Assembly: GCA_018883125.1 (NCBI GenBank)
Contig: VEQR01000013.1
Location: 1 to 51,610, forward strand
Length of the DNA stretch: 51,610 nt
Direction: 5' to 3'
Source: Candidatus Kapaibacterium sp.
Lineage (GTDB): Bacteria; Bacteroidota; Ignavibacteria; Kapaibacteriales; Kapaibacteriaceae
Part shown: positions 6,671 to 46,102 of the stretch, one piece after another
Layout: the number at the start of each line of letters is the position of its first letter
Position numbering within the stretch: position 1 is the stretch's first letter
Made by a program: the position numbers and the translations under genes
The notes under the pieces: generated by a model
The model's database searches: none
What the model was told of the DNA's origin: nothing
What the model saw: only the letters and a program-made list of their open reading frames with translations

Positions 6671-9600
6671 ATGTTCCGATTTTACTCTGTTGCCGTTAAG
6701 GCAATGATTCTTTTGGTGCTGCTGGCATCGGGCGGAGAGCTCTATGCCCAGTACTGCAGGCCCACGCTACCAGCCCAGGCGTGGTCCGGAACGACGTTCA
6801 TCAGCGGCGTTACGATCGGGAATAATTACTCCCGCTCCTCGGGCGTTGGCGCCGGTGGATACGAGTACCTTACTAGCTCGGGTGCTCCGATCCCGCGTGG
6901 GTCCAACGTCAATGTCACCATTCAGCTTGGAACAGCGTTCTTTGGTGTGAGCTATTCGGTGTGGTTGGACCTCAACCAAGACGGTCTGTTCGGGCCAACG
7001 GAGCGGTTACTGTGTCTCGCCAACGGCGGGTCGAGTGCGTCGTTCACTCTCAATCTCCCGTGTGATACCAGGATCGGCCGTACACGGATGCGCATTATGA
7101 CCGCCAGCTATGTCGGTGCCTTGCCATGCCCGCCCGATCCATGTCAGTTGCTCGAGTTCAGTTACCCGGACTGCGAAGACCACGACATTGACATCCTTGG
7201 ATCATTTTCCGGTACGTCGTTCCCGAACGACACACCAGACAGCTCTGCTATCCTCGTGAAGGGTAACATCTATGACGGACTTTCGGCAAACCGCCCAGCC
7301 CCAATGATCGCTGTGCGTGCTTCACAGGCAGGTCAGTCGACGCAGTTGCAGTACCGAATTTTCGGTCCATTGCCGAGCACAGATACTGTGTACTCAGCAA
7401 ATTGGACGTTCGTTGCTCCATCAGCCGGCATATTCAATGTCAACCCTCCAACCGCAACTGGCCGCCTTGCTGGGCCGGGCAATGCTCTCAATACGACCAA
7501 TGCCATTGGTGGTGAGTATGCCCTGCTTGTTCGCGCACCAGCTGCGCCGGGTTCAGCGTGTCCTGATGAATACTCGAGGGCATTTACGATAGCTGTACAG
7601 CGTGACATTTCCACTCGTCAGATCCGTTCGCCACAGAACAACGACGCTCCGCGCCGCTTCAAGTACCCAAACACGACGGCGATCCCTGTTGAAGCGGTGT
7701 TCCAGAATTCGGGTCTTGATACCGTAAAGAATTTCCGAGCTCGCGTCATGCTGTATGCACCGTCGGGTGCTATTGAGTATGCAGACACCGTCAATGTGGT
7801 AGATCCACTGGCATCGACAGTGCGTTTGACGCAAACGTTCGCCAACTTTATTCCAAGTCCTGGCGGCCACCCTGTTGGTATTCACCGCGCAGTTGGCTGT
7901 GCGGATCTGGTCGATCCATTCCCGGATGAAAACTCGTTCAACGATTGCTTCCCACGTCCGGGGTCGCCAAACCTCAATTTCGAGGTTGGCTACAACGAAG
8001 AACCAGCTGTCAACTCTGTCTCTGTGCCGGTTCCGAATCCGACCACGCTTACTCAGGTTCTGATTCAGGGCCGTTCGTTCCGTCCAGAAGGCATTTTTGA
8101 GAACAATGGTATTCAGGATCTCTCGAACGTTCCAGTTCGTCTGATCATCACCAAGCTTCCTCAGAATACGGTCGTCTATAACCAGACTGGTATTGTCCCG
8201 GACATCGCCGCTGGCCAGTTCAACAAGGCGATCTTTACGTTCCCAACATTCACACCGGTTGAAGGCGGCGACTACCGCTTCTGCTTCCGTGTTGAGTATC
8301 CTGGTGACCCGGTTACGACGAACAACGAGATCTGCATCACGCGAAATGTTGAGGCAAATTTCAATGGTACATACACGATCGGTAGCACGGTAACCGGCCC
8401 ACGGAACTTCCCAACGATCGACTCGGCTCTCAACGCCTTGTACTTCCGCGGTGTTAGCGGTCCGGTTGTGTTCGAATTCACGGACAACACCTACACTGTA
8501 ACAAAGGTTGGTGTTGCAACACCCGCGATCGACCTCTCGTCGCGCATTATTGGTGTAAGTGCAACGAACACCATCACATTCCGTCCGTCAACAGAGCGCT
8601 CTATCTCCAAGGGTGCTGTAACGATCAACATGGAAACGCAGTCCGGCCTTGGTGTTCTGTTTGGTCAGAATACGTCACCTTCGAACTTGTACGCGATCCA
8701 GCGTGCACAGTACTTCGCCAACGCCCAGAATGCCAATTCTGCGGGTAACATCACATTTGATGGTGGAATCCAGAAGGCACTGCGCTTTACGATGCGGAAG
8801 ACGACAACGACGTCACCGTTTGTGTCCGTCTTCTATCTCTCCTCTGGTTCGTCGAACATTTCGATCCAGAACGTCTTGGTTGAGAACGCAACCGGCGTAA
8901 CGCCAACGTATGCCACGTCGCTTCCTCAGGTACAGTTCAACTCCGGTTCGAACCAGTACCGCTTCGAGACGAACACGCGTAACAACACGGTGTCGTTCAC
9001 GGCCGGTATCGTCAACCGCGACACGATCAATCCTGACAACCTTGGTAACCTCGATACGCTGATCAACACCAACAACAAGTTCATTGGTAACGAAATCAAT
9101 GGCTTCGGCTATGGTATCGTATCGATCGGTATCGGCTCGCTCATCAAGAGCGGTATCAATGAGTTCCGTCCGTACTACAATGCCGGCACGGAAATCCGCG
9201 ACAACCTGATCTTCAACGTTCGTCGTGCGGGTATCTTCGCTGCTTACGAAGACGGTGCCCAGATCACGGGCAACCGCATCTACAATGTTGGTGCAGTAAC
9301 CGGTGGAACGCCAACGGATGCCTCCGGTATCCTCGCCGGTGGTGAGCTTCGCTACAACAACATGAACCTGTTCATCGCACGTAATGAGATCAGCGGTGTA
9401 TCAGCTTCGGCATGGGTTCGTGGTATTACCGTTGAGCAGGCTCGCAATGATTATCAGTCGGTTGCCGGCGGTAGCGGCAGCGCACGCGTACTCTTCCCGA
9501 ACAAGGCCGAGCGTACATACGTCACCAGCAACATGGTTTGGGGTCTGACCCGTACGGGAGCAGCAGCAAACGTTGCCGGTATTCACCTGTACACGCGCCG

Positions 9601-12142
9601 CGTCACGTCGTCCGTACCAACTACAGCACTTCTGACACCAAACACTGTCGAGTACTTCACGGCTCAAGACTCCGTTGTGAACAACACGGTTGTGATCACA
9701 GCTGATGGTCTTAGCGGTACAGGCGCCCTGGTTGGCGTAGGTCTTCAGAATGCCAATGCACCTGTTGTGATGAACAACGCGCTGGCGATGCTGACGGACT
9801 CCAACACGGCAGCCATCACGAACTCGGCAATCTTCTATCAGGGTACGATCTTCCGCAATGGCCGCGTTAACACCTGGTACCTGCCAACAACGGCACCTGG
9901 TGCTCTGATCTCGAACAAGAATGCCTTCTGGACGCCAAACGCCGGTATCGGACGTGTTGTGGAAGTGTCGCACGTGAGCGAACTGGTATCGGCCGGTTCA
10001 CAGACAGAGTTTGCAACACTTGCACAGTGGCGCAACTGGACGGGACAGGACATCAACTCACCGTACGGAAACTTCGTCGCTGATCATGCCTTTGTCGGTA
10101 CAGCTCCGAATCAGAGTCTGCGTGTTGTCGTGACGCCACAAGTGCCAATCGGCTCGATTCTGAACAACAATGGTGAGCGACTCAGCGGTACAAAGCTGGA
10201 CGTCGAAAACAACATCCGTGGCGAAGCCGGTCTTGGCTACGACATCGGCGCTGATGAATTCAATGGTCGTCTCTATGTGAGCGATCTTGAAGTGATCGAC
10301 GTTCTGAGTCCAGCCGCGTATCGTGATGCGGTAGGCCCGACGAGCGATGCCGAGTATATCATGACCACAGCACCAGTTGATGTGCGTGCACGTGTCCGTA
10401 ACAACGGAGCACTTGCCACGACGCGTTCACGGGTCCGCGTTCGCGTCTTCATCGAAACACCGGCTTCGAACAATGCGGTGATGAATCCTGCACAGTACAG
10501 CAGCTTCCCGCTGGTGGACCGCGTGATCACGACGAGCCTGACGTCAGGTCAGTCAAAGGACATTCAGTTTGCTATCCCATCATGGTCACCACAGCCATAC
10601 CTTGGTATGACCGGGTATAACGTGCCTGCGCAATTCGCTTCGATGAGCGCCAACGTTACCCCACGGTACCGTGTTGAAGTATCGGTTGATGCTGACGAGT
10701 TCAACAACAACAATGTGTTTGCCAAGGATGTTCGATTCTTCATCCGCAAGTCAACACTTCGTCTTCTGCTGAGCGTTGAAGGCACGAACCTTGACATTCT
10801 TTCCGGTACGCCAACTCAGAACCAAATTGCTGCTCGTCTGAATGCTGACAGTGTTCAGAAGGCCTTTGGTGATCTTGGCTACATCAATGATCCATCGAAT
10901 GGTCGTTTTGATTTCGACGTACTTGACCGCTACAGCTGGGCAACTCGCTCGGTGGACTACACGATGTATCAAACGATCTTCTGGGGTCAGGACCTGAACC
11001 CACTTACGCGCAGTGAGCGTGATGATATCCGCAACTACATCGCCGCTGGTCAGCCGGGCATGAAGAAGAACTTCGCGATGTCGGCTTCAACGGTTCCATC
11101 GCAGCACAACGGTGCGTCGATCGTGTCTGACCTCAACTTTGTTCAGACAACTCTTCGTTGCCAGCTTCGTGCACCGGGAACTCCATTCTCGCCAACGTAC
11201 AGCGGACGGAATATCGATGGACGCGCGATCGCACGTGGCAATGGCGAAACAGTTGTTCGCACCGGTTTTGCCGGTGACGCCGAACCGACACCGGCTCTGG
11301 TTTCGATGTATTCGGATGGTACAACTTCAGGTGTTGTGAACGCTGCATATACCTACCGCCGTGCTGATCGCTCTACACCGAACGACTCGATCATGGGTAC
11401 GGCAACGGCCGGCATCACGGCCAACTCCGTGTACCTTGGAGTTGACTGGCGTCACTTCGCACGTTCAACATCTGCTACGGTTCTTCGCACAGGTATCGAG
11501 CGTGTTGTCCGCGGTATCCTTGACTTCTTCGAAACAAACGGTGGCGGCCTTGTTCCAGTACAGCTGACGTCGTTTGATGCTAAGGCTCGTGGTAAGAATG
11601 TTGACGTCTTCTGGTCAACAGCCTCTGAAGAAGGCCTTCGTCAGTACGAAGTTGAGCGCGCTTCCGTCAACAACGTCAAGGCTGGTGACATCACTGGTGA
11701 TGCATTCAGCGTTGTCCGCACAGTCGAAGCCAACGGATCGTCAACGACACCGAAGGATTACTCGATCACAGACGAGAAGCTTGTACCTGGCACATACACC
11801 TACCGTTTGACGACTGTTGACAAGGATGGCGCGCGCTCGACATCAGAAAATGTTAACGTCACGATCGATGGTGAAGGCTCGGGTCTGTGGATCAACACCA
11901 TTGCTCCGAACCCGGTTGTCGATGGTGCAGTTGTCTCCTTTGGAATGGAAACAGCAGGTCTGGTCGAAGTGATCGTCGTGAACAGCGCCGGTCAGGAAGT
12001 TGGCACGCTGCTGAGCGAAACCCTCACAGCAGGTGAGCACACTGTCCGCATGTCGGCAGCACAACTTGCTTCAGGATCATACACGCTGATCGTCCGCAGC
12101 AATGGCTTCTCGGTCTCGTCTTCGGTGACGGTAACCAAGTAA
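6671..12142 (+). CDS. Giant secreted surface protein, copy 2 (GEVED + beta-helix + T9SS sorting domain)
   Basis: This is a tandem paralogue of the gene at 705-6176, with the same length (1823 residues) and no net insertion or deletion. The signal peptide and leader end are identical. The GEVED head (~33-175) differs at about 25 residues, for example WLDLNQDG for WLDVNQDG. Residues ~176-470 carry only a handful of substitutions plus silent changes. From about residue 473 to the stop I find no difference, and the identity continues at the DNA level to just past the stop codon. Domain order and T9SS sorting tail are as in copy 1, so both are presumably surface-exposed through T9SS. Its own promoter and terminator make it a separate transcription unit. 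The pattern points to recent gene conversion of the 3' two-thirds with divergence kept in the head. Confidence 0.8.
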   Translation: MFRFYSVAVKAMILLVLLASGGELYAQYCRPTLPAQAWSGTTFISGVTIGNNYSRSSGVGAGGYEYLTSSGAPIPRGSNVNVTIQLGTAFFGVSYSVWLDLNQDGLFGPTERLLCLANGGSSASFTLNLPCDTRIGRTRMRIMTASYVGALPCPPDPCQLLEFSYPDCEDHDIDILGSFSGTSFPNDTPDSSAILVKGNIYDGLSANRPAPMIAVRASQAGQSTQLQYRIFGPLPSTDTVYSANWTFVAPSAGIFNVNPPTATGRLAGPGNALNTTNAIGGEYALLVRAPAAPGSACPDEYSRAFTIAVQRDISTRQIRSPQNNDAPRRFKYPNTTAIPVEAVFQNSGLDTVKNFRARVMLYAPSGAIEYADTVNVVDPLASTVRLTQTFANFIPSPGGHPVGIHRAVGCADLVDPFPDENSFNDCFPRPGSPNLNFEVGYNEEPAVNSVSVPVPNPTTLTQVLIQGRSFRPEGIFENNGIQDLSNVPVRLIITKLPQNTVVYNQTGIVPDIAAGQFNKAIFTFPTFTPVEGGDYRFCFRVEYPGDPVTTNNEICITRNVEANFNGTYTIGSTVTGPRNFPTIDSALNALYFRGVSGPVVFEFTDNTYTVTKVGVATPAIDLSSRIIGVSATNTITFRPSTERSISKGAVTINMETQSGLGVLFGQNTSPSNLYAIQRAQYFANAQNANSAGNITFDGGIQKALRFTMRKTTTTSPFVSVFYLSSGSSNISIQNVLVENATGVTPTYATSLPQVQFNSGSNQYRFETNTRNNTVSFTAGIVNRDTINPDNLGNLDTLINTNNKFIGNEINGFGYGIVSIGIGSLIKSGINEFRPYYNAGTEIRDNLIFNVRRAGIFAAYEDGAQITGNRIYNVGAVTGGTPTDASGILAGGELRYNNMNLFIARNEISGVSASAWVRGITVEQARNDYQSVAGGSGSARVLFPNKAERTYVTSNMVWGLTRTGAAANVAGIHLYTRRVTSSVPTTALLTPNTVEYFTAQDSVVNNTVVITADGLSGTGALVGVGLQNANAPVVMNNALAMLTDSNTAAITNSAIFYQGTIFRNGRVNTWYLPTTAPGALISNKNAFWTPNAGIGRVVEVSHVSELVSAGSQTEFATLAQWRNWTGQDINSPYGNFVADHAFVGTAPNQSLRVVVTPQVPIGSILNNNGERLSGTKLDVENNIRGEAGLGYDIGADEFNGRLYVSDLEVIDVLSPAAYRDAVGPTSDAEYIMTTAPVDVRARVRNNGALATTRSRVRVRVFIETPASNNAVMNPAQYSSFPLVDRVITTSLTSGQSKDIQFAIPSWSPQPYLGMTGYNVPAQFASMSANVTPRYRVEVSVDADEFNNNNVFAKDVRFFIRKSTLRLLLSVEGTNLDILSGTPTQNQIAARLNADSVQKAFGDLGYINDPSNGRFDFDVLDRYSWATRSVDYTMYQTIFWGQDLNPLTRSERDDIRNYIAAGQPGMKKNFAMSASTVPSQHNGASIVSDLNFVQTTLRCQLRAPGTPFSPTYSGRNIDGRAIARGNGETVVRTGFAGDAEPTPALVSMYSDGTTSGVVNAAYTYRRADRSTPNDSIMGTATAGITANSVYLGVDWRHFARSTSATVLRTGIERVVRGILDFFETNGGGLVPVQLTSFDAKARGKNVDVFWSTASEEGLRQYEVERASVNNVKAGDITGDAFSVVRTVEANGSSTTPKDYSITDEKLVPGTYTYRLTTVDKDGARSTSENVNVTIDGEGSGLWINTIAPNPVVDGAVVSFGMETAGLVEVIVVNSAGQEVGTLLSETLTAGEHTVRMSAAQLASGSYTLIVRSNGFSVSSSVTVTK

Positions 12143-35422: not shown

Positions 35423-36331
35423 ATGTCCATTACGGTGCATCCTGATATCGCCCACTTGCGAGAGCACGTGCGCGAGCTGCGACGTGAGCTTCGGAGCGTG
35501 ATCGATGACTGGCATCGACTTTCTACTGAGGTGCGGCCCAGGCTTCACGCTATCTACCATGCGCATTTTGGTGAGCTGGAGCGCGAGCTTCAACAGTCGG
35601 CATTGTCTGCTGCCGAGATGTTCCGTCGGGTGGAGCTCCTGAGCATCAAGCATGAACGGGGCGAGCAGCTCACGCAACAGATCGTTGATCTGATCAACGA
35701 GGTTGTTGATAAGGAGTATGCGCGCTTTGCCATGCGTGTGAAGGAGGCATTTGAAATGGATCAGCGTCAGCGCGACGATGCCGAACGCACCCGAACGGGT
35801 CAGACGTCGGATCATGAACTTGTGTCGATGTATCGCACGCTCGTCAAGCAGCTGCATCCCGATGTGGCGGATACTTCCAAGAACGATGCCGAGGACGGTG
35901 GCGTCTGGCATCAGGTCCAGACGGCCTATGCAAGCCGCAATGCCGGACAGCTGCGCTCTCTACTGGCGGTGTTGGGGGCTGATGAGGCGCTCACGCGGGA
36001 AGCCGATGACTGGGGCATCGATCGCTGGCGTCATGAGGCGGAGGAGATGGAACGCCGGCTCGGTCTTGAACAGCGCAAGCTGCGACGTCTGCGCGCAGAA
36101 GAACCATTCACGATGGAGCGTGATCTTGAGGACGAGGGATGGCGCAATCGACATCGTGATGAGCTTGTGCGCGTCATTGCCCGGAAGAAGGATGAATTGC
36201 GGGAGTCGGAGAGGCGTTATGCCGAGCTGACGGAGGGTCTTGTGCCCCGTGGACAGAATCCCACCAAGAGCAAGGAAGAACGATCGTTCGACGAGGATTT
36301 CATGACGAATACCTACTTTGGACAGCGCTGA
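35423..36331 (+). CDS. Coiled-coil protein with a DnaJ-like J-domain segment
   Basis: I start this at ATG 35423 (302 residues). The longer open frame from 35204 runs through the end of the BatA gene and encodes a Cys/Gly-rich stretch unlike a real protein. The N-terminal ~130 residues are charged and helical (coiled coil: LREHVRELRRELRS). Residues ~137-190 resemble a J-domain with YRTLVKQLHPDVAD, containing the essential HPD (145-147), and then a helix. The C-terminal ~100 residues are again a Glu/Arg-rich coiled coil. It should therefore recruit and stimulate an Hsp70 (DnaK). The target is unknown. It is in the middle of the envelope operon: 11 bp after BatA, and its stop overlaps the M61 start by one base. 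Confidence 0.75.
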   Translation: MSITVHPDIAHLREHVRELRRELRSVIDDWHRLSTEVRPRLHAIYHAHFGELERELQQSALSAAEMFRRVELLSIKHERGEQLTQQIVDLINEVVDKEYARFAMRVKEAFEMDQRQRDDAERTRTGQTSDHELVSMYRTLVKQLHPDVADTSKNDAEDGGVWHQVQTAYASRNAGQLRSLLAVLGADEALTREADDWGIDRWRHEAEEMERRLGLEQRKLRRLRAEEPFTMERDLEDEGWRNRHRDELVRVIARKKDELRESERRYAELTEGLVPRGQNPTKSKEERSFDEDFMTNTYFGQR

Positions 36332-38175
36332 TGTACTCTATTGAACAACGCGACGAACAGCTCGCCAACACAACGGCAGATATCGTCTACGAACTCGGGT
36401 TTGACCGCGCTCCACAGCATCTGGTCTCAGTCCGCATGCGCATCAGTCGCGTTGCCGGATCCGAGCTCACGCTGGTGATGCCATCCTGGTCGCCCGGCAG
36501 TTACAAGATTCGTGACTATGCCGGCTGGCAGGGGAACGTCCGATGCTATTCCGTGAATGGATCGCAGCGTGCCGAGCGCCAATATTCCTGGCGCGACAAG
36601 GCATCAATGGTGATCGACACCGGCGGTGCCGACACCATCGAGGTGGAGTACCTTGTGTACGCTCACGAGCGAACCGTGCGCACCAGTCACGTGAATCGAT
36701 TTCACGCCTTTCTTATGCTCACCTCGATCTGCATGTACGTCGAGGGACGCACGCAGGAGATCCACCACGTGGTGCTTACGCACGATCAGCAGCGGTGGAC
36801 GTCAACATCAACGGCGCTATCGGCTGTGCAAGCCCCCTCTCAGGGACGCATGATCCTGGGGGCACTGAATTACGACATTCTGGCTGACTCGCCGATCGAG
36901 ATCGGTGATCATCGCGTAACGACATTTTCGGCTGCCGGTGCCCTTCACGAAGTAGCCCTGCCAACGAACTATGACCTCGATATCGACTGGCTTACCGAGC
37001 GGGTGAAGCGTATCGTGGAAGTGGAGACCACCCTCTTTGGTGGCAAGGCTCCCTATGACCGATATGTCTTCATCATTCAGGCATATCCCGGTGCAGGAGG
37101 AGGCCTGGAGCATGCCCGCTCAAGCGTGAACGCTGTTGACCCATCGGCGTTGCTGGACAAGTCCAAGGCCATCGGATTGCTGTCGCTCCTATGCCATGAG
37201 TACTTCCACCTGTGGAACGTCAAGCGCATTCGCCCTGTGGAGCTCGGCCCGTTCGACTACACCCGTGAAACCTATACGCCGATGCTCTGGTTGGCTGAGG
37301 GCCTTACGTCGTACTACGACAACCTGCTGGCGTATCGGTGCGGATTCACAACGCAGAAAGAGTATGTCGAGTCGATCTCCCGTGACGACATTGCTAAACT
37401 TGATGATGTTAAGGGGCGGTTCGCGATGTCCACCCGCGACAGCTCAACGCTTGCTTGGTTGAAGTTGTATTTGCAGAGTCCGGATGGATCAAATCGCTTC
37501 CCATCATACTACCTGAAAGGGGGCATCATCATGATGCTCCTGGACGTTTACATCATCGACCATACCGACGGGAAGTACTCACTTGATGATGCCATGAAGG
37601 CAATGTGGAGGCGCTATTTGGAAGACCCGGCCAAGGGTATGACGGAAAGTGAGTGCATTGCGATCATCGAACAGGCAACAAAGGTGCAGGTCCGCGAGCG
37701 TCTTATGAGTTGGCTCGGCGGCACGACTGAACTTCCGTATGACGAGATCTTCCAGGCGGTTGGTTACTCGGTCAAGCGATCTCCCAAGAAGATCGAAGCC
37801 GGCACGTTCGGTGAAAAGGTTCCGGCTGCTGCCGTTGCGCCGACGCCATACATCGGTTGGTCTTTGGCCGATGTGAGCGGGAAGATCATCGTTCGTTCGG
37901 TCGACGACGGATCGCCGGCGCAGCTTGCCGGGGTGGGGATCGATGACGAGATCGTTGCCATCAATGGCATCCGAATTCTGACTCCTGCCCAGGCAGACCA
38001 CGTTCTTGGTGGACGCATCGGCAAGGAGGCCACGCTCACCGGCCATTGTGATGGTCGCGTGTACACAACGTCTATAACGGCAGCCGAGCGGATCGTTCCG
38101 GCCCTCGTTGAAATAGACAAGCCTTCGGCGCGTCAAGTCGAAATGCGTAACCGATGGTTGCAACGGACCCTGTGA
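36331..38175 (+). CDS. M61 family (glycyl aminopeptidase-type) peptidase with PDZ domain
   Basis: This 614-residue metallopeptidase has the zinc motif HEYFH (H289, E290, H293) followed by WNVKRIRP, and the third ligand E323 in WLAEGLTSYYD, as in M61 enzymes. The N-terminal ~190 residues form the family's beta-sandwich (MPSWSPGSYKIRDYAG). The C-terminal ~90 residues are a PDZ domain (VRSVDDGSPAQLAGVGIDDEI, split here at the glycine turn). I see no signal peptide, so it may be cytoplasmic, as are many M61 proteins. Glycine- or alanine-initiating peptides are the known preference in the family; the specific substrate here cannot be inferred. The start overlaps the previous stop, and the next lipoprotein overlaps by four bases. 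Confidence 0.92.
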   Translation: MYSIEQRDEQLANTTADIVYELGFDRAPQHLVSVRMRISRVAGSELTLVMPSWSPGSYKIRDYAGWQGNVRCYSVNGSQRAERQYSWRDKASMVIDTGGADTIEVEYLVYAHERTVRTSHVNRFHAFLMLTSICMYVEGRTQEIHHVVLTHDQQRWTSTSTALSAVQAPSQGRMILGALNYDILADSPIEIGDHRVTTFSAAGALHEVALPTNYDLDIDWLTERVKRIVEVETTLFGGKAPYDRYVFIIQAYPGAGGGLEHARSSVNAVDPSALLDKSKAIGLLSLLCHEYFHLWNVKRIRPVELGPFDYTRETYTPMLWLAEGLTSYYDNLLAYRCGFTTQKEYVESISRDDIAKLDDVKGRFAMSTRDSSTLAWLKLYLQSPDGSNRFPSYYLKGGIIMMLLDVYIIDHTDGKYSLDDAMKAMWRRYLEDPAKGMTESECIAIIEQATKVQVRERLMSWLGGTTELPYDEIFQAVGYSVKRSPKKIEAGTFGEKVPAAAVAPTPYIGWSLADVSGKIIVRSVDDGSPAQLAGVGIDDEIVAINGIRILTPAQADHVLGGRIGKEATLTGHCDGRVYTTSITAAERIVPALVEIDKPSARQVEMRNRWLQRTL

Positions 38176-40277
38176 TACGACCACGCCTCATATCGATCCT
38201 CGTAATCATTACCGGCATTGCCGGGTTTTCGGGGTGCGCGTGGTACGACAATAAGATCACGTACTTCAACACGTACTACAACATGCAGCGCATTCGTGGT
38301 GAAGTTCTCGATGAGTTCGACTACCAGGAAGAGCTCAAGCGGAACCGTCCACGTGTGTTGATCCCCGGCATGGACAGTCTCAAGCTCACCTCCGGTCCGC
38401 CGAAGAATGCCACCTACCAGTTTCTCAAGGCGTTACAGATCGACCGAACCAAGCTGCAGCCGGTGGCTCAGAAGGTGGACTCGATGCTGATCAAAGGCTC
38501 GAAGGTTGTTGGCCTGCATCCCAAATCCGAATACGTTGAAGGCGCACTGTTCCTCATGGCTGAGGCATACTTCTTCCGTTCGGAATGGGTGCCGTCGCAG
38601 CAAAAGTGCATTGAGCTCATTGAGCGCTATCCTGATGGTGAATATTCACCTGATGCGCACATTCTTCTGGCCAAGGTCTACCTGATGCAACGGAAGGTGT
38701 CGCAGGGAACGCAGATGCTCTCGCGGGCCATCGATGTGGCGTGGTATCGGGATAGGTATGACGTGGCCAGCGAGGCATATCGCATCCAAGCCGAAATGGC
38801 CATAGAGGATGGCGATATCGAAAAGGCCGTAATGCCGTACAAGCAGGCTCTGGTTATGTGCGACGATCCGCTGCAGCGATCCAAGTGGCAGATCGAGATC
38901 GCCTCGATCTATTACCGGATCGGTAAGTTCGAGCTTGCTCAGGCGGCATTTCAGAAGGTCCTCGACGATGAAGAGCCCGATGCACTCGGCCAGTTCGAAT
39001 CACTGCTCTACATTGCTTCGTGCCGTGCGCGTTTAGGTCATTACGACGAGGCCAGTGGACTCTATGCGAAGTTGGAAGATCGCAAGGCCTTTACTGAATG
39101 GGCCTCATTCATCCAGGCGGAGCGTTTGTCACTGGATCGACTGCGTCAGGAAAACAACAAAGACAAGACCTTGCTGGCACGCGAGCGTTTTGCCGATACG
39201 TCGTTTGTCGGGAAACCCGAGTTAATGGCCCAGTCGTTCCAAAAGGGAATGTCCCTGTATAAGATCGGCGACTATCCCGAGGCCATAAAGTATTTCGCGA
39301 AGGCCAAGATCATCCGCACGCCGGTCTATGATGTGGCTGGAAAGTACTACACAGCCCTGCGGACCTGGGATGAGTCGAAGCGGAAGGTGCTCATTCTGGA
39401 GCAACATCTGAACGTTGATACCTCGCGTCGAGATTCGATCATGCGTGTGAAGGCCAACGAACTCTACACGATCGGCAGGGTACATGAACAGCTCGATGTG
39501 CAGGACAGTGCTCTTGCATACTATCGACTGGCGTGGCAGGCAAGTGACCCCAAGTCCGAGGATGCCGGACGCTACCTGTTTGCCCAAGCACGACTGCTGC
39601 GCGATAAGGATCCGGATGTTTCCGACTCACTGTTTGAGTACGTCTCGATCACTTGGCCCAGAAGCCCCTTTGCCAAAGAAGCGGCAGCCAGCCTTGGTTA
39701 CACGGCAGATGCGAGTATCGACGATGCTGCTGAGCTGTATGCCTCGGGAACAAAGTTCCGTTTGATCAAGGATTACGCCTTTGCGGCGCGTCAGTATAAG
39801 TCTGTTGCCAGCCGGTTCCCGGAAAGCGATATGGCCCCGAAGGCATTGTATGCACTCGGGTGGATGTTTGAGCGTGACGTACACAAGAATGACAGTGCGC
39901 TGTTCTACTACGGACAGTTGATTGAACGGTATCCGCGCTCTGAGTATGCAAGGGAGGTGCGGGCAAGCGTGGAGTTCGCGCTGGCGAAGATCAATGGTGT
40001 AGAGGTGTCGGACTCTACACTATTGAAGGATCTTGACAAGGACCTTCTCCGCCGCGGTACCGAGCAGGACAAGAACGTCATGCAGCAGCTCATCGACCGC
40101 AACGCCAACGCTTTGCAGGTTTCAGGTCCCAACGCAACAGTTCCTCAGATCCCGGGACTGACCAATGGTGGCTCAATAAATACCATGCTGCAGGATCAAC
40201 TGCGTGATGCTCAGGGCAACGTACTTGGCAAGCGGGACTCGACCAACATTGTGCCCCCGCCGCTGCCGAAGCCGTAG
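38172..40277 (+). CDS. TPR-repeat lipoprotein (possible PorW/SprE-like T9SS factor)
   Basis: The protein has 701 residues from GTG 38172, which overlaps the M61 stop as GTGA; ATG 38154 is in frame but lies inside the previous gene. The N-terminus is a lipoprotein signal with lipobox GFSGC (C22). Just after it comes CAWYDNKITYFNTYYNMQ, similar in spacing to the Cys-(x)n-YHN-TAKYN motif of PorW/SprE, the T9SS periplasmic lipoproteins. The rest is about ten to twelve tetratricopeptide-like helix pairs (AEAYFFRSEW, ALYALGWMFERD, ALFYYGQLIERYP). The last ~70 residues are disordered. It ends the eight-gene operon. A BamD-like or generic TPR lipoprotein is the alternative. Presence next to T9SS cargo genes favours PorW/SprE, but I rate that as inference. 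Confidence 0.8.
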   Translation: MIRPRLISILVIITGIAGFSGCAWYDNKITYFNTYYNMQRIRGEVLDEFDYQEELKRNRPRVLIPGMDSLKLTSGPPKNATYQFLKALQIDRTKLQPVAQKVDSMLIKGSKVVGLHPKSEYVEGALFLMAEAYFFRSEWVPSQQKCIELIERYPDGEYSPDAHILLAKVYLMQRKVSQGTQMLSRAIDVAWYRDRYDVASEAYRIQAEMAIEDGDIEKAVMPYKQALVMCDDPLQRSKWQIEIASIYYRIGKFELAQAAFQKVLDDEEPDALGQFESLLYIASCRARLGHYDEASGLYAKLEDRKAFTEWASFIQAERLSLDRLRQENNKDKTLLARERFADTSFVGKPELMAQSFQKGMSLYKIGDYPEAIKYFAKAKIIRTPVYDVAGKYYTALRTWDESKRKVLILEQHLNVDTSRRDSIMRVKANELYTIGRVHEQLDVQDSALAYYRLAWQASDPKSEDAGRYLFAQARLLRDKDPDVSDSLFEYVSITWPRSPFAKEAAASLGYTADASIDDAAELYASGTKFRLIKDYAFAARQYKSVASRFPESDMAPKALYALGWMFERDVHKNDSALFYYGQLIERYPRSEYAREVRASVEFALAKINGVEVSDSTLLKDLDKDLLRRGTEQDKNVMQQLIDRNANALQVSGPNATVPQIPGLTNGGSINTMLQDQLRDAQGNVLGKRDSTNIVPPPLPKP

Positions 40278-40311
40278 GAAGGGGGCGTGCCATTCCCAGC
40301 TGCGACGCACC

Positions 40312-40617
40312 TTAGCAGAGGATCTGTGTGTGCAGCTCGATCTCTTCGAGAATACCGGACACGCGCAGGCAATCATTGAAGTCGCCATCGAACACAATGG
40401 CCTTGCCGAAGTGATGCACCTCTAGCGTCAGGGCCTCGGCTCGATCCGGCGAACAGCCGGTTGCCTCGATGATCTGGTCGATCACCTCGTCGAACGTGTG
40501 AACCTCGTCGTTGAAGAGCAACACCCTGGCCGAGAGTTCCGTCTCGACCGACTCAAAAAGGTCGTGCTGATGGCTGGGGTCATGCTGCCCCAGAAAAACC
40601 GCGCTGATAATGTCCAT
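40312..40617 (-). CDS. clpS: ATP-dependent Clp protease adaptor ClpS
   Basis: This 101-residue protein delivers N-degron substrates (with bulky N-terminal residues) to ClpAP. The ClpS core is clear: [15 protein letters not shown], then [17 protein letters not shown], then an [10 protein letters not shown] helix. Those include the Asn-Asp-Asp/Glu-type pocket and the conserved His near the N-end binding site. The N-terminal ~30 residues are a poorly conserved tail, as usual. It is transcribed away from the CADD gene, and its stop lies close to the end of the TPR lipoprotein gene on the opposite strand (34-bp gap). No ClpA gene is in the window. Confidence 0.92.
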
Positions 40618-40645
40618 GTGTACGGCGCGAAATTACGAAATGACC

Positions 40646-40653
40646 TATCTTTG
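40646..40653 (+). promoter_or_regulatory. Bacteroidota-type -7 element before the CADD gene
   Basis: TATCTTTG is a perfect match to TAnnTTTG, located 45 bp before the ATG of the CADD-type gene in the 80-bp divergent gap with clpS. I do not see a convincing -33 TTTG at the right distance, so the call is tentative. GAGGA (40685-40689), eight bases before ATG 40698, is a good ribosome binding site. Confidence 0.4.
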
Positions 40654-40697
40654 CCCTCTGAACACTTGTCTATTCACGCCAACCGAGGACCGTTAAC

Positions 40698-41390
40698 ATG
40701 ACCACGGAAGAATTCCTCCTGAAGCTCGACGAGATCGTCTCCGAGCGCCACATGCTTCAGCACCCGTTCTACCTCATGTGGAACGAAGGAACACTCACGG
40801 TTGATATGCTCCGCGAGTATGCCAAGGAGTACTATCACCAAGTACACCTGTTCCCGACGTACGTCAGCGCCACGCATGCAAACTGCGAGGACATGGAAGT
40901 GCGTCAGATGCTTCTCGAGAATCTTATCGAAGAAGAGCACGGTCCGGATAACCACCCGGAGCTATGGCTCCGCTTTGGTGGTGCACTCGGCGTGAGCCGT
41001 GAGGAAATGAAGGAGCGTCGCTACCTTCCTCATACACGTGAGTCTGTGCGCATCCTGAAGGAGCTGGCCGGACGCAAGAATGCTTATGAAGGTCTTGCTG
41101 CTCTGTATGCCTACGAGTCACAGATCCCAGAGATCTCAACCACGAAGATTGCGGGACTGAAGAAGTGGTATAACCTCGACACCAAGGATGCTCTGGAGTT
41201 CTTTGCCGTTCACGAGCATGCTGATGAGATCCATCGCATCGTAACACGAGAAGCGCTTGTGCGCATGTGCGAAACGGACGAGCAGAAGCAGGCAGCCCTT
41301 GATTCAGCTCGCGAAGCAGCTGATGCCTTCAATCTGTTGCTTGATGGCGTCTACAACACGTGGTGTGCGGAAAAGGCAGCGCTGAACTGA
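40698..41390 (+). CDS. CADD-type self-sacrificing para-aminobenzoate synthase (TenA/PqqC fold)
   Basis: This 230-residue all-helical protein belongs to the CADD family, the chlamydial 'folate-related' branch of TenA/PqqC-like diiron or Mn/Fe oxygenases. In Chlamydia trachomatis CADD cleaves one of its own tyrosines to make pABA for folate. With a constant offset of two, the residues known there are all here. The metal ligands are E79, H86, E140, H172, D176 and H179 (for 81, 88, 142, 174, 178 and 181), the sacrificed tyrosine is Y25 (for 27), and the lysine is K150 (for 152). Visible motifs are HPFYLMW, EEEHGPDNHPE, AYESQIPE and HEHADEIH. Numbering is recalled, not computed. It stands at the head of a short run with a glutamine amidotransferase and nuoL. 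No pabABC gene is in the window, so pABA supply through this protein is plausible. Confidence 0.88.
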   Translation: MTTEEFLLKLDEIVSERHMLQHPFYLMWNEGTLTVDMLREYAKEYYHQVHLFPTYVSATHANCEDMEVRQMLLENLIEEEHGPDNHPELWLRFGGALGVSREEMKERRYLPHTRESVRILKELAGRKNAYEGLAALYAYESQIPEISTTKIAGLKKWYNLDTKDALEFFAVHEHADEIHRIVTREALVRMCETDEQKQAALDSAREAADAFNLLLDGVYNTWCAEKAALN

Positions 41391-41402
41391 TCACCAAGCG
41401 TC

Positions 41403-42311
41403 ATGTGTCGCTTTATCGCTTACATAGGTCCGTCGATCCTTGCCGATGATCTGCTCTACAAGCCGAAGTTTTCGCTTGTAACAGCGCAGACCATGAATGC
41501 TGGTGAGATGTCCGTGTCTGTCAATGGTGACGGGTTCGGTGTGGGTTTCTATGCACCGGAGCTTGACAACGAGCCCTGCGTGTTCCGAAGTATCAAGCCG
41601 GCTTGGAGCGATAACAACCTGAAGAACCTGGCGAAGAAAATTCACTCTCCCTGCATGTTCGCCCACGTTCGGGCGGCGTCGCCGGGATTGGCCGTCGAAG
41701 AGCTGAATTCGCATCCGTTCGCCTGTGGCAAGCTGATGTTCATGCACAACGGCGTGGTAGGGGGCTTCAAGTCCATCCGCCGTAAGCTTCTTCGAATGCT
41801 CAACGATACGGCCTACGACGCGATCCAGGGAAGCACTGATTCGGAACACCTCTTTGGTCTGCTGCTGAATCATATTGCCGATCCGTACGGCCATGTTACG
41901 TGTGAAGAGCTCGTGCAGGCCATGTATGGAATGTTTGCTGATCTGAATACGCTTCTCATGGATTCAGACGTCAGACAGCATTCGTATTTGAACCTTGCTG
42001 TTACCAACGGAACGTGTCTTATCACTGTCCGCTACACAACGAATCCGAACGTTCAACCGGCTTCGCTGTACTACATGCACGGACGCGAGTATCGATGCGT
42101 GGGAGATAACTGCATGATGGAGCAGGCGTATGGAAAGCCAAGTGCCATCGTGGTAGCATCGGAGCCGTTTACGGCCCGTCGCGCTGACTGGATGAAGGTT
42201 GAACGGAACGCGATGATGGTTGTTGATGAGACAATGACCATTGCGTTTCACCATGTTGAGATGGACGTCGAAAAATTAGATTTCGAGACAATAGCCCCGG
42301 AAATCGGATGA
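41403..42311 (+). CDS. Class II glutamine amidotransferase (YafJ-like)
   Basis: This is a 302-residue Ntn-type amidohydrolase. The start MCRFIAYIG puts the catalytic Cys at position 2, which becomes N-terminal after Met removal, so ATG 41403 is well supported. Further family motifs are NGDGFGVGFY, FAHVRAASPG, HPFACGKLMFMHNGVV and DSEHLF. Proteins of this class hydrolyse glutamine or gamma-glutamyl compounds; YafJ-like ones have no known acceptor domain, and none is attached here. It follows the CADD gene by 12 bp, and its stop overlaps the nuoL start (ATGA). Whether it acts in folate or pABA metabolism with CADD is open; the neighbouring location is the only hint. Confidence 0.85.
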   Translation: MCRFIAYIGPSILADDLLYKPKFSLVTAQTMNAGEMSVSVNGDGFGVGFYAPELDNEPCVFRSIKPAWSDNNLKNLAKKIHSPCMFAHVRAASPGLAVEELNSHPFACGKLMFMHNGVVGGFKSIRRKLLRMLNDTAYDAIQGSTDSEHLFGLLLNHIADPYGHVTCEELVQAMYGMFADLNTLLMDSDVRQHSYLNLAVTNGTCLITVRYTTNPNVQPASLYYMHGREYRCVGDNCMMEQAYGKPSAIVVASEPFTARRADWMKVERNAMMVVDETMTIAFHHVEMDVEKLDFETIAPEIG

Positions 42312-44257
42312 ACTACGCAGCCCTGATACCGCTTTTTCCCCTAGTGGGATTTGTGATCGTTGCTCTCTTCGGGCGACGCATCAATAATGAGAAGCTCGTT
42401 GGCACGATAGCCAGCGGGGCCATCCTGGCAAGCTTCATCACGGCGGTATCCGTGTTCATGGGGCTTTCGGCCCATGCACCGGAGGAGCGCTCATTCGTGC
42501 ACGAGGTGTACACGTGGATTGCCACAGGCGATTTCAAGGTGAATATCGCTTATCAGTTCGATCAGCTCTCGATTCTCTTCACGCTGATCATCACCGGAAT
42601 TGGCTTCCTTATCCACGTGTACTCGATAGGGTATATGCATGGCGACAAGAGCTTTCCGCGCTTCTTTGCCTACTTGAACCTGTTTGTGTTCATGATGCTC
42701 AACCTTGTGCTTGCCAATAACATGCTTCTTACCTTCTTGGGTTGGGAAGGTGTGGGCCTGGCCTCGTACCTGCTGATCGGATTCTGGTACGATCGCAAGT
42801 TTGAGGGGACCAATATCACGTGGACCGGTGACGCAGCCATGAAGGCTTTTGTGGTGAATCGGATTGGTGACTTCGGCGTACTTCTGGCAATGTTCTTGTT
42901 GTTCACCAACTTCGGCACGCTCGACTACGCCGCCATCAACAGCAACGCCCAATCTGTCCTGTCCACGGAAAAAGCAACGCTGATCACCCTGTTGCTGTTC
43001 CTCGGCTGCACGGGTAAGAGCGCGCAGATTCCGCTTGGCGTTTGGCTGCCTGATGCTATGGCGGGTCCGACGCCGGTATCAGCTCTGATCCACGCCGCAA
43101 CAATGGTTACATCGGGTATCTTCCTCATCGCCCGTACCAACGTCCTCTTTGCAATGTCGCCAACTACCATGGCTGTGGTGACGGGTATCGGTATTACCAC
43201 GGCACTTCTTGCCGGACTCGTGGGCCTTGTACAGAACGACATCAAGAAGGTGCTTGCCTATTCGACGGTATCGCAACTCGGATTCATGTTCGTTGCGCTC
43301 GGCGTTGGTGCCTTTACTGCCGGCGTGTTCCACGTGATGACACACGCCTTCTTTAAGGCCCTGTTGTTCCTCGGCTCCGGAAGCGTTATCCATGGTATGC
43401 ATGAAGAGCAGGACATCCGCAAGATGGGTGGTCTGAAGAAGTATATGCCGATCACCTATCGGACGTTCCTCATCGGCACACTAGCGATTGCCGGTATCCC
43501 ATTCTTCTCGGGCTTCTTCTCGAAGGACGAGATCCTGTGGTTTGCCTGGCTGAACGGAAGTCCGGTGTTGTGGGGCGTTGGGGCACTTGCTGCTCTCACA
43601 ACAGCGTTTTACATGTGGCGATTGACCACGCTAACCTTCAGCGGTGAGGAGCGTTTTGATCATCATCACGTTCATCCGCATGAGTCGCCGGCAACGATGA
43701 CCATTCCGCTGATCGTTCTTGCCGTGCTCTCAGCCGTTGGTGGCCTTCTTGGAATCCCGCACGTAATCGGTCATGCTCTGCACTTGCCAAATCTTCTCGA
43801 AGGCTGGCTTGAGCCGATCTTCGCCAACGGCCATGCTCTGTTGCCAAAGCACGAAGGAGATCATGCTTCGTTGGAGATCACCCTGATGGCCGTGTCATCC
43901 GTTATTGCTGTTATCGGCATTCTTGCTGCCCGCTCGGTGTATAGCAAGGGTATGGGCACGGCAAATTCCATCGCCGGCAAACTCTCCGCCGGATACAAGC
44001 TTCTGCTGAACAAGTATTTTGTCGACGAAGTGTATAACCTGCTTGTAGCTGGTCCGATCATGGCTGCATCACGCGATTTTCTCTGGAAGATCGTCGATGT
44101 GCTCGCAATCGACGGACTAGTCAATGGATCTGCACGTTCGATGGGTGCATTGTCGGGTACACTCCGAAAAATCCAAAGTGGTGTGGCGCAGAACTATGCG
44201 CTGATCATGATGATCGGCATTGTTGTACTGCTTGGAATGGTACTCGGACCATGGTAG
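42308..44257 (+). CDS. nuoL: NADH-quinone oxidoreductase subunit L
   Basis: This 649-residue inner-membrane antiporter-like subunit of complex I has about 16 hydrophobic segments. Its signature blocks are present: GWEGVGLASYLLIGFWY (with the conserved Trp-Glu), TGKSAQIPLGVWLPDAMAGPTPVSALIHAATMV (split here, Lys and His in the proton path), KKVLAYSTVSQLGFM, and the C-terminal long lateral-helix and closing helix region. The C-terminal ~50 residues are as in true NuoL rather than in Mrp or DabB proteins. No other nuo gene is in the window, so it is separated from the rest of complex I, or is a stand-alone copy. It is preceded by an overlapping glutamine amidotransferase gene and followed by a hairpin that runs up to the SRAP start codon. 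Confidence 0.9.
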   Translation: MNYAALIPLFPLVGFVIVALFGRRINNEKLVGTIASGAILASFITAVSVFMGLSAHAPEERSFVHEVYTWIATGDFKVNIAYQFDQLSILFTLIITGIGFLIHVYSIGYMHGDKSFPRFFAYLNLFVFMMLNLVLANNMLLTFLGWEGVGLASYLLIGFWYDRKFEGTNITWTGDAAMKAFVVNRIGDFGVLLAMFLLFTNFGTLDYAAINSNAQSVLSTEKATLITLLLFLGCTGKSAQIPLGVWLPDAMAGPTPVSALIHAATMVTSGIFLIARTNVLFAMSPTTMAVVTGIGITTALLAGLVGLVQNDIKKVLAYSTVSQLGFMFVALGVGAFTAGVFHVMTHAFFKALLFLGSGSVIHGMHEEQDIRKMGGLKKYMPITYRTFLIGTLAIAGIPFFSGFFSKDEILWFAWLNGSPVLWGVGALAALTTAFYMWRLTTLTFSGEERFDHHHVHPHESPATMTIPLIVLAVLSAVGGLLGIPHVIGHALHLPNLLEGWLEPIFANGHALLPKHEGDHASLEITLMAVSSVIAVIGILAARSVYSKGMGTANSIAGKLSAGYKLLLNKYFVDEVYNLLVAGPIMAASRDFLWKIVDVLAIDGLVNGSARSMGALSGTLRKIQSGVAQNYALIMMIGIVVLLGMVLGPW

Positions 44258-44263
44258 GCGGAC

Positions 44264-44298
44264 TGTTCAGCCCCCTATCTCGAGATGGGTTCTGAACA
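44264..44298 (+). promoter_or_regulatory. Stem-loop ending exactly at the SRAP start codon
   Basis: TGTTCAG (44264-44270) pairs with CTGAACA (44292-44298). Inside, CCC and GGG with ATC/GAT continue the stem after a small internal loop and a bulge, with TCGA as the loop. The 3' arm ends one base before ATG 44299, and no T-tract follows, so this is not a normal terminator of nuoL. It occupies the place of the ribosome binding site; no Shine-Dalgarno is visible. Confidence 0.55.
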
Positions 44299-45006
44299 AT
44301 GTGTTATACGGTTTCCATTTTTGCGCAGACACATGTTATCGAGACTGACCTCGGTCGGTTGTTTGAGGACGCGTCAGAGTTTGTACCGTACGTACACGTC
44401 TCCGGCTTTGCCCACCCCATTCTGCCGATTGCAGCAGGCGAAAGCGATCTGCGGTTGATGCAATGGGGCTTGGTGCCACGCTGGGTCAAGACGTTGGAAC
44501 AGGCGCACGAAATGCAGCAGCGCACCTTGAATGCCCGCGCGGAAACGGCATTTGAAAAGCCATCGTTTCGCGATGCGATTCGAAAGCGAAGAGGACTGTT
44601 ACCTGTAAATGGTTTCGTCGAATGGCGTCACGACGGAAAGCTGAAGATTCCCTACATGGTGCGACTACGGGATCACGAGATCTTTACTCTTGGATGTATC
44701 TGGGAGGAGTGGATCCAACCGGAAACGGGTGAATGCCGTGCGACGTTTTCGATTCTGACAAGTGAAGCGAATATGCTGATGTCGTATGTTCACAATTCCG
44801 CAATGCGCATGCCGGTGGTGATCCCTCGCGAGGACCGCCCTACATGGTTGTTCGCCGAGGACAGAGAAGAGATTCAGCCGCTGATGCGGCCGCTGGAAGA
44901 CGGGTTTCTGGAGGCCTATCCTGTGACGAGAGAAGTATCACGAATCCGCGTGAACACCAACGAGCCACAGCTGTTGGAACCCGTCGGTGAGATCATTGTG
45001 GCATGA
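44299..45006 (+). CDS. SOS response-associated peptidase (SRAP, YedK/HMCES-type)
   Basis: This 235-residue protein crosslinks to abasic sites in single-stranded DNA through Cys2, shielding them until repair. ATG 44299 is fixed because the nucleophile must be Cys2 (MCYTVSIF). The other active-site residues are N78 (LNARAE, E82), E108 (NGFVEW) and H165 (SYVHNSAMRMPVVI), near-identical in spacing to E. coli YedK (N75, E105, H160). The gene ends ATGA, overlapping the thioredoxin-like gene, so they are coupled. A hairpin immediately upstream of the AUG suggests control of translation. No LexA-type box that I can recognise precedes it. Confidence 0.92.
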   Translation: MCYTVSIFAQTHVIETDLGRLFEDASEFVPYVHVSGFAHPILPIAAGESDLRLMQWGLVPRWVKTLEQAHEMQQRTLNARAETAFEKPSFRDAIRKRRGLLPVNGFVEWRHDGKLKIPYMVRLRDHEIFTLGCIWEEWIQPETGECRATFSILTSEANMLMSYVHNSAMRMPVVIPREDRPTWLFAEDREEIQPLMRPLEDGFLEAYPVTREVSRIRVNTNEPQLLEPVGEIIVA

Positions 45007-45476
45007 TTCTTTATTCGCTGTTGATGCTGCTTGGACTCTCGTCTGCTGGTGTTGACGAGGTGAATCTGGCACAGTTACAGTCGCGTATTTATCGAGGTGC
45101 TGACACCACCTACGTTGTGAATTTCTGGGCAACATGGTGTCGGCCATGTATTGAAGAGCTACCAGCGTTCGAAGCACTTGCGCGCAAACGGAGCAAGGAG
45201 CCGGTGGTGGTACTTCTCGTCAGTCTTGATGCACCGATCGACCGGGAAACCAAAGTGGAGCCGTTCATCCGCAAAAAGGGTTACGATCATTGTCAGGTTG
45301 TGATTCTGAACGAACCTAAGCCCCATCTCTGGATTGATAGAGTTGATCAGTCGTGGAGTGGCTCAATTCCCGCAACGCTGTTCGTGAAAGGTCAGCGCCG
45401 ATTGTTTGGTGAGTTTCAATTCAACGAAGAGTTACTTGATTCAACGTTTACTGCATTTCATAAGGAAGAAAAGTGA
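45003..45476 (+). CDS. TlpA/ResA-like thioredoxin-fold protein
   Basis: This 157-residue protein has a short hydrophobic N-terminus (MILYSLLMLLG, a probable signal or anchor) and a thioredoxin domain with active site WCRPC (W45, C46, C49) in FWATWCRPCIEELP. This is the TlpA/ResA type of reductant, usually facing the periplasm, that delivers electrons to disulfides of exported or haem proteins. The start overlaps the SRAP stop, and the stop overlaps the next GTG start, so translation is coupled on both sides. The specific partner is unknown. Confidence 0.88.
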   Translation: MILYSLLMLLGLSSAGVDEVNLAQLQSRIYRGADTTYVVNFWATWCRPCIEELPAFEALARKRSKEPVVVLLVSLDAPIDRETKVEPFIRKKGYDHCQVVILNEPKPHLWIDRVDQSWSGSIPATLFVKGQRRLFGEFQFNEELLDSTFTAFHKEEK

Positions 45477-46102
45477 ATCGTGTCTTTCAGTGGTGTGTCA
45501 CTGTGCTGATCGTCGTTACGACGCTCTCAGCAATTGCACGCGCCAATGGCAACGAAGGGGGAGTGAATGTGGGCGACAGCGCTCCGGTATTCTCGCTGAT
45601 GAACGTCGATGGCAAGAAGGTTGCTCTCTCGGATTTCTCATCCGCGAAGGGGGCTATCATTGTCTTCACCTGCAACCATTGCCCGTATTCGGTGAAGTAC
45701 GAAGACCGAATTATTGCCTTGCACCAACAGTTCGCATCGCAGGGATACCCTGTGATCGCAATCAACCCGAACGATCCGGTAACTGTCCCGGAAGATGCAT
45801 ACGATCAGATGATCGTGCGCGCAAAGGAGAAGAAGTTTCCGTTCCCGTACCTGGTCGATGAGACCCAGGAGATCGCAAAGGCATACGGTGCCAAGCGGAC
45901 GCCGCACGTGTATGTGGTGGCGAACACGAAGGACGGATCAAAGGTTGCGTACATCGGTTCAATCGATGACAATGCTGCTGATGCATCGGCTGCAGAGTCG
46001 TTTTTTGTGAGCGATGCCGTTACCGCACTGCTTGCCGGAAAACTTCCGACAACGCCCCTTACCAAAGCAATTGGCTGCACAATAAAGTGGAAGAAGAAGT
46101 AA
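45473..46102 (+). CDS. Redoxin/peroxiredoxin-like thioredoxin-family protein
   Basis: This 209-residue protein starts at GTG 45473, overlapping the previous stop (GTGA). A signal peptide (~1-25, ending IARAN) precedes a redoxin fold. It opens VGDSAPVFSLMNVDGKKVALSDF and has the CxxC pair C67-C70 in FTCNHCPYS, followed by VIAINPND and YGAKRTPHVYVV. This TCNHCPY branch of AhpC/TSA-like proteins is common in Bacteroidota and Planctomycetes. It is probably a periplasmic thiol oxidoreductase that works with the upstream TlpA-like protein. The Arg/Gly-rich gene starts directly after its stop (TAAATG). Confidence 0.85.
   Translation: MNRVFQWCVTVLIVVTTLSAIARANGNEGGVNVGDSAPVFSLMNVDGKKVALSDFSSAKGAIIVFTCNHCPYSVKYEDRIIALHQQFASQGYPVIAINPNDPVTVPEDAYDQMIVRAKEKKFPFPYLVDETQEIAKAYGAKRTPHVYVVANTKDGSKVAYIGSIDDNAADASAAESFFVSDAVTALLAGKLPTTPLTKAIGCTIKWKKK

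Follow-up and report, generated by a model that had tools for sequence, protein, structure and literature searches.

Two proteins, CADD (CT610) of Chlamydia trachomatis and NePabS (NE1434) of Nitrosomonas europaea, are called self-sacrificial in a 2026 review (PMC13108848). CT610 was tied to folate genes, with which it clusters, in a 2007 analysis (PMC1971073), and NePabS, which has the same residues, has been proven biochemically to make p-aminobenzoate (pABA) from itself (PMC11965152). The NePabS paper also describes the roles of CADD residues Y27 and K152, confirms a CADD metal site of three histidine and three carboxylate residues, and names the relay residues Tyr41, Tyr45, and Trp99 as important in NePabS. 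The two enzymes differ at a pair of metal-selector positions: Y141/Y170 in CADD, which prefers Mn/Fe; and F148/F177 in NePabS, which prefers Fe/Fe. An engineered NePabS variant, F148Y, has similar activity with either cofactor (PMC11965152). Homologues outside the Chlamydiae are mentioned by the same authors for Wolbachia, Rickettsia, Chloroflexi, and Sphingomonas (PMC11965152).

The window, a stretch of 51,610 nucleotides from Candidatus Kapaibacterium sp. (contig VEQR01000013.1), contains an intact open reading frame at positions 40698..41390 of the forward strand (stop codon included), which begins with ATG and encodes 230 amino acids. On the evidence of a family model, alignments, and an AlphaFold2 model, its product is predicted to be a CADD-type self-sacrificing pABA synthase. 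The NCBIfam model TIGR04305 (fol_rel_CADD) matches the protein over its full length with 280.1 bits (E 1.1e-83), above the cut-off of 200. PqqC, TenA, BesC, and UndA share its heme-oxygenase-like fold, the UndA likeness being one of fold only. Models for three of these score far under their cut-offs and rule out such identities: PqqC (TIGR02111), 68.3 bits versus 240; TenA thiaminase II (TIGR04306), 17.1 versus 130; and BesC, 33 versus 500.

Structures point the same way. A phmmer search of the PDB with the window protein returns 9pj4, named 4-aminobenzoate synthase, as the first match and 1rcw, which is CADD itself, as the second. The AlphaFold2 model (25 own and related sequences; pLDDT 94.5, pTM 0.90) adopts the heme-oxygenase-like fold of 1rcw, and Foldseek places two CADD structures at the top of its PDB matches: 1rcw (E 1.8e-15; TM 0.88/0.94) and 8va9, with an rmsd of 1.5. 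The CADD-type identification made in an earlier note on this DNA was thus right. That note also stressed an occurrence outside the Chlamydiae, which is true of this gene but no novelty, given NePabS (PMC11965152) and the NCBIfam model. As judged from its sequence, the window gene is a genuine member of the known CADD/NePabS enzyme family, within the superfamily of heme-oxygenase-like dimetal oxidases.

The alignment of the window protein with 1rcw is free of gaps between query residues 5 and 179, at an offset of +2. The earlier note had listed eight key residues at this constant offset, and all eight are identical: Y25 (CADD Y27), E79 (E81), H86 (H88), E140 (E142), K150 (K152), H172 (H174), D176 (D178), and H179 (H181). 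They comprise the sacrificial tyrosine, Y25; the lysine, K150, which corresponds to K152 of CADD and K159 of NePabS; and three histidines and three carboxylates (E79, H86, E140, H172, D176, and H179) at the CADD positions that we take to be the six metal ligands. Alignment with the NePabS-like 9pj4 (42% identity) again pairs Y25, the lysine, and all ligands, and it equates the relay residues Tyr41, Tyr45, and Trp99 with Y41, Y45, and W90 of the window protein, from which a 9-residue insertion of 9pj4 is absent. Since 9pj4 has Lys where a NePabS peptide (PMC11965152) has Gln before HPF, it may come from another species. The host of NePabS, like that of the window protein, is free-living.

Conservation was followed through 294 genomes of the same class, 77 of which encode a protein over the TIGR04305 cut-off and were counted as CADD-positive. 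The 13 checked positions, with position 168 set apart, are all kept in 75 of these 77 long forms. The two exceptions are L082 (Y25F, Y45F, H86F, and H172R) and L081 (E140K and D176E); the trimmed alignment set holds one more, L073, which is without its N-terminus. L081 (4968-5669; family f9) combines its two ligand changes with a retained tyrosine and lysine. Over the whole set only one of the 77 long forms has lost the sacrificial tyrosine and none the lysine, and neither residue is a metal ligand.

The metal-selector pair of the window enzyme, Y139/F168, fits neither described subtype: Y139 agrees with the Mn/Fe enzyme CADD (Y141/Y170) and F168 does not, whereas NePabS, the Fe/Fe enzyme, has Phe at both positions. 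The hybrid is the rule rather than an oddity of this locus, being present in 72 of the 77 long forms (the other five are Y/Y), in all 52 other named loci, a set that overlaps the survey, and in all 28 cyanobacterial loci. Y139/F168 is also the selector pair of the engineered NePabS F148Y, so the window enzyme is predicted to be cambialistic, by analogy with a single mutant described for a distantly related orthologue.

Signals for expression lie close to the gene. A Shine-Dalgarno-like GAGGA (40685..40689, forward strand) starts 13 nt 5' of the ATG, with the words GAGG and AGGA at −13 and −12. Further upstream is a promoter-like box, TATCTTTG (40646..40653, forward strand), of the form TAnnTTTG, which we take to be the Bacteroidota type of promoter element. 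It recurs upstream of orthologous genes: among 31 of them, that of the window counted in, 28 have such a box 20-75 nt 5', whereas 500 mononucleotide shuffles gave a mean of 0.6 and a maximum of 5. A sigma-70-like promoter was looked for in 40280-41480 and rejected, with no site found there. The earlier note expected a good ribosome binding site and promoter to suit the making of many copies; the box is of another type than sigma-70, and copy number cannot be read from it.

The divergent neighbour (40312..40617, reverse strand) encodes ClpS, the Clp protease adaptor (PF02617, 52 bits; cut-off 23). In 24 of the 77 survey loci, from five families (f1, f3, f8, f9, and f10), ClpS is encoded close to CADD on the other strand, also where the downstream neighbours differ. 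This suggests a link that possibly serves disposal of the spent enzyme, or possibly reflects shared ancestry only. CADD clusters with fol genes (PMC1971073); none was found among the eight scanned neighbours of the window gene (36331-46102), and clustering with folate genes was rejected for this locus. Weaker folate hints come from other loci: GcvP is encoded 5' of CADD in family f15 and in a single case of a compact gene, and a gene for pterin-4a-carbinolamine dehydratase lies nearby at some loci, long and compact alike. Elsewhere in the window, positions 705-6176 and 6671-12142 encode tandem GEVED-domain proteins of 1823 residues each that are 98% identical (1793/1823); in an alignment viewed to about residue 1500, the two differ within the first ~460 residues.

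If this enzyme makes pABA, what else in the host could do so? The host assembly comprises 2.90 Mb in 199 contigs, with completeness of 98.97% and contamination of 4.07%. No match in this genome was obtained with PF00425, a model that takes in pabB, trpE, and isochorismate synthases, or with the model for chorismate synthase (aroC, PF01264); both match in 14 of 14 control genomes. Dehydroquinate (DHQ) synthase (aroB, PF01761) matches in none of the 23 genomes of the window's family, its own included, versus 11 of 14 controls. The two class-IV aminotransferases found are both IlvE over curated cut-offs, so neither is PabC, and folP is present. Without chorismate synthase and DHQ synthase the chorismate route is impossible in this host, whatever pabA does. 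The earlier note had made its proposal depend on a lack of pabABC; for pabB and pabC that lack is confirmed, and it extends to aroC and aroB. CADD would thus stand in for pabABC here, and with DHQ synthase, chorismate synthase, pabB, and pabC all missing, no other candidate source of pABA was found in the host.

The same association appears across the class. PF00425 and aroC were counted at E 0.001 (one of the 201 aroC matches falls under the curated cut-off). Of the 77 CADD genomes, 13 have PF00425, compared with 173 of the remaining 217, a difference whose Fisher P value (9.9e-23) overstates the case because the test ignores ancestry and the genomes are related, not independent. Counted per genus by majority, the figures are 9 of 38 versus 88 of 113 (5.3e-9, subject to the same caution). 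Chorismate synthase is found in 24 of 77 versus 177 of 217. The window's own family carries CADD in 15 of 15 surveyed members, its own included, with PF00425 and aroC in none. Among named genomes, of unstated completeness (45 of 80 named loci were taken in; these overlap the survey and are not independent of it), 23 of 24 of the Kapabacteria type are without PF00425.

Eighty-four genomes have neither aroC nor PF00425, and 64 of these encode a CADD-type protein: 53 long, nine compact, one intermediate (G186), and one fragment (G220), the last two counted only under "any CADD-type." (Weak TIGR04305 matches, G073 and a second one in G133, were left uncounted; the split match of G216 was counted as compact.) A TIGR01496 (folP) match occurs in 63 of the 64, although folP is useless as a discriminator, with matches in 281 of the 294 genomes.

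Much of this pattern follows family lines. PF00425 is entirely absent from families f1, f2, f3, f6, f9, f15, and f22. By comparison, 143 of 145 genomes of families f11-f14, f16, f18, f20, f23, and f28-f30 have PF00425, and none has a long CADD. Families f15 and f22 offer no internal contrast, since PF00425 is missing in 44 of 44 genomes and long CADD occurs in 25 of them. Family f19 does show one: PF00425 is absent from nine of nine CADD genomes and present in three of the four without CADD. The 13 CADD genomes that have PF00425 belong to families f5, f8, f10, f24, f25, and f31.

Five of those 13 genomes had their PF00425 genes typed. Four with intact CADD (G136, G146, G223, and G249) have a single such gene, which is TrpE over cut-off and falls under the PabB cut-offs. 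The fifth, G278, has TrpE together with a gene that passes the cut-off for PabB (TIGR00553, 354.1 versus 328.4) and adjoins a class-IV aminotransferase gene whose product resembles PabC and IlvE without passing any cut-off. Its CADD is the decayed L082, the single case in which the sacrificial tyrosine is lost where the chorismate route remains. The two loci of G278 lie at L082:4914-5672 (decayed CADD) and L106:750-2930 (PabB with the adjoining PabC-like gene). The survey thereby holds natural experiments of two kinds: several CADD lineages that have lost pabB and aroC, and one decayed CADD where pabB is retained.

How far might these patterns mislead? The absences could be artefacts, with pabB and shikimate genes hidden in assembly gaps or the contig itself a contaminant, and the 199 contigs and 4.07% contamination of the assembly lend this some colour. 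Set against it are the 98.97% completeness and two relatives, G027 and G037, whose CADD genes lie on contigs that span nearly whole genomes (2,193,228 and 2,841,677 bases) in which PF00425 and aroC are absent, so assembly gaps are not the cause. Moreover, CADD genes 96% identical to that of the window occur in three metagenome-assembled genomes (Bacteroidetes UBA10438, Ignavibacteria RE-18aug17-124, and Candidatus Kapaibacterium ZLKRG33; L116-L118), where the neighbouring genes are again those for ClpS, a TPR protein, a class-II amidotransferase, and NuoL. An artefact is extremely improbable. Uptake of pABA or folate from outside, with the enzyme as a dispensable or conditional supplement, is a less remote idea and still a very unlikely one. 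It draws on the 20 of 84 chorismate-free genomes that encode no CADD-type protein (for example, G179, G210, G221, G127, and G151); 17 of the 20 have a folP match, so a genome with folP and no pabB need not have CADD, and pABA uptake or another enzyme may serve. Supplements of that kind do not sit well with the presence of CADD throughout the window's family (15 of 15 genomes surveyed, all devoid of both PF00425 and aroC) or with the conserved promoter-like box.

The remaining rival grants the presence of a functional enzyme and changes its reaction: a CADD-like dimetal oxidase that acts on some small molecule, in lineages that lost chorismate by coincidence of ancestry. The heme-oxygenase-like superfamily is catalytically diverse (PMC13108848), and the survey is phylogenetically structured. 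In addition, folP over cut-off is missing from five of the 77 CADD genomes: G087 (92% complete), with no folP match at all, and all four CADD genomes of family f5 (G148, G240, G276, and G282), in which chorismate genes are present. Yet an oxidase of that sort would have to account for a tyrosine and a lysine, neither of them a ligand, kept in 76 and 77 of the 77 long forms; for the only tyrosine-less copy residing in a genome with pabB; and for NePabS, in which the same residues yield self-derived pABA (PMC11965152). It is unlikely. A CADD/NePabS-type pABA synthase that is the sole pABA route found in the host, feeding folate, is by analogy with NePabS the reading that we hold with considerable confidence.

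A second, smaller form of the enzyme emerged from the survey. Compact relatives of ~185 residues occur in 15 of the 294 genomes (L084-L087 and L089-L099; for example, L087:4992-5546:+). They fall below TIGR04305, whose description goes no further than putative folate metabolism: none of the 15 exceeds the cut-off, and the four scanned score 75.6-96.1 bits versus 200. Profile A1 separates them cleanly, with at least 262 bits for compact forms versus at most 99 for long ones, and its PDB matches at E 0.001 or better are CADD (two sequences) and 9pj4 only. Invariant in all 15 are Y13 (in HxFY), K121, Y29, Y33, W72, E65, H68, E111, H142, E145, and H148. The clade therefore retains the tyrosine, the lysine, the relay, and six ligand-type residues, as assigned by alignment. 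Its spacings, E-x2-H and H-x2-E-x2-H, differ from those of CADD; variable spacing of such ligand motifs is known in the heme-oxygenase-like superfamily (PMC11363339). The host genomes lack PF00425 in 10 of 15 cases and aroC in nine. On these sequence features the compact clade is a candidate second form of self-sacrificing pABA synthase. One 212-residue protein (L083:4986-5621; 150.9 bits; selectors V/Y) is intermediate in form, and the gene after it looks, by eye, like a biotin carboxylase gene.

The compact selectors are F/Y in 15 of 15. Together with the Y/F pair of 72 long forms, they supply the two cells absent from a comparison of CADD (Y/Y) with NePabS (F/F). Natural proteins now complete that comparison, so the model of metal choice can be tested with them.

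Close relatives of the window enzyme also occur far from its class. Cyanobacterial sequences are 59-65% identical to it, compared with 39-46% for same-class members of families such as f15, f19, and f22. In a FastTree phylogeny (from which L101, L073, L080, and L176 were omitted as fragments, cut, or odd), the 28 sequences from cyanobacteria group together as a single clade nested among those of the Kapabacteria type, surrounded by nodes of low support (0.66 and 0.47). Horizontal transfer involving cyanobacterial CADD, in one direction or the other, is likely on these grounds. Each of the 21 cyanobacteria tested has retained between one and three PF00425 genes, so CADD in these hosts supplements chorismate rather than making up for its loss. 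Filamentous genera with close CADD proteins are Trichodesmium, Okeania, Microcoleus, Planktothrix, and Spirulina (L166-L170, L172-L175, and L177-L195). One cyanobacterial CADD gene (L182) lies near those for an ABC-3 permease, an ABC ATPase, and a ZnuA-like metal-binding protein.

What is observed here is the sequence family with its residues, the fold of the model, the absence of genes, and the anticorrelation across the class; the chemistry, the pABA product, and its flow to folate would follow by analogy with the described enzymes. The dimetal site (E79, H86, E140, H172, D176, and H179) would react with O2, and the oxidising hole would travel to Y25 by way of aromatic side chains, W90, Y45, and Y41 among them. 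The Y25 side chain would then be severed from the backbone (Tyr to Gly), and the fragment, oxidised with two oxygen atoms of O2 and aminated by K150, would yield one pABA per protein. FolP would couple pABA to the pterin. Tyrosine would be supplied from outside, and the cost would be one 230-residue protein for each pABA.

Among the listed titles and abstract openings of an open-licence library, none deals with CADD in Kapabacteria, chorismate-free folate synthesis, or the compact clade. Three things are new here: a CADD whose host is missing the shikimate pathway, the hybrid pair of metal selectors, and the compact forms. The joint proposal, that lineages of Kapabacteria and Ignavibacteria make folate chorismate-free from protein tyrosine, that the hybrid enzyme accepts both Fe/Fe and Mn/Fe, and that the compact clade performs the same chemistry, has in our estimate a little better than an even chance of holding in full.

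The host appears to have lost the normal pathway to the aromatic ring of folate, and very probably cuts that ring from a protein that destroys itself. Such a single-use enzyme looks wasteful. The proposed gain is that folate becomes uncoupled from chorismate, so that a cell that imports amino acids may drop the shikimate pathway and yet make folate.
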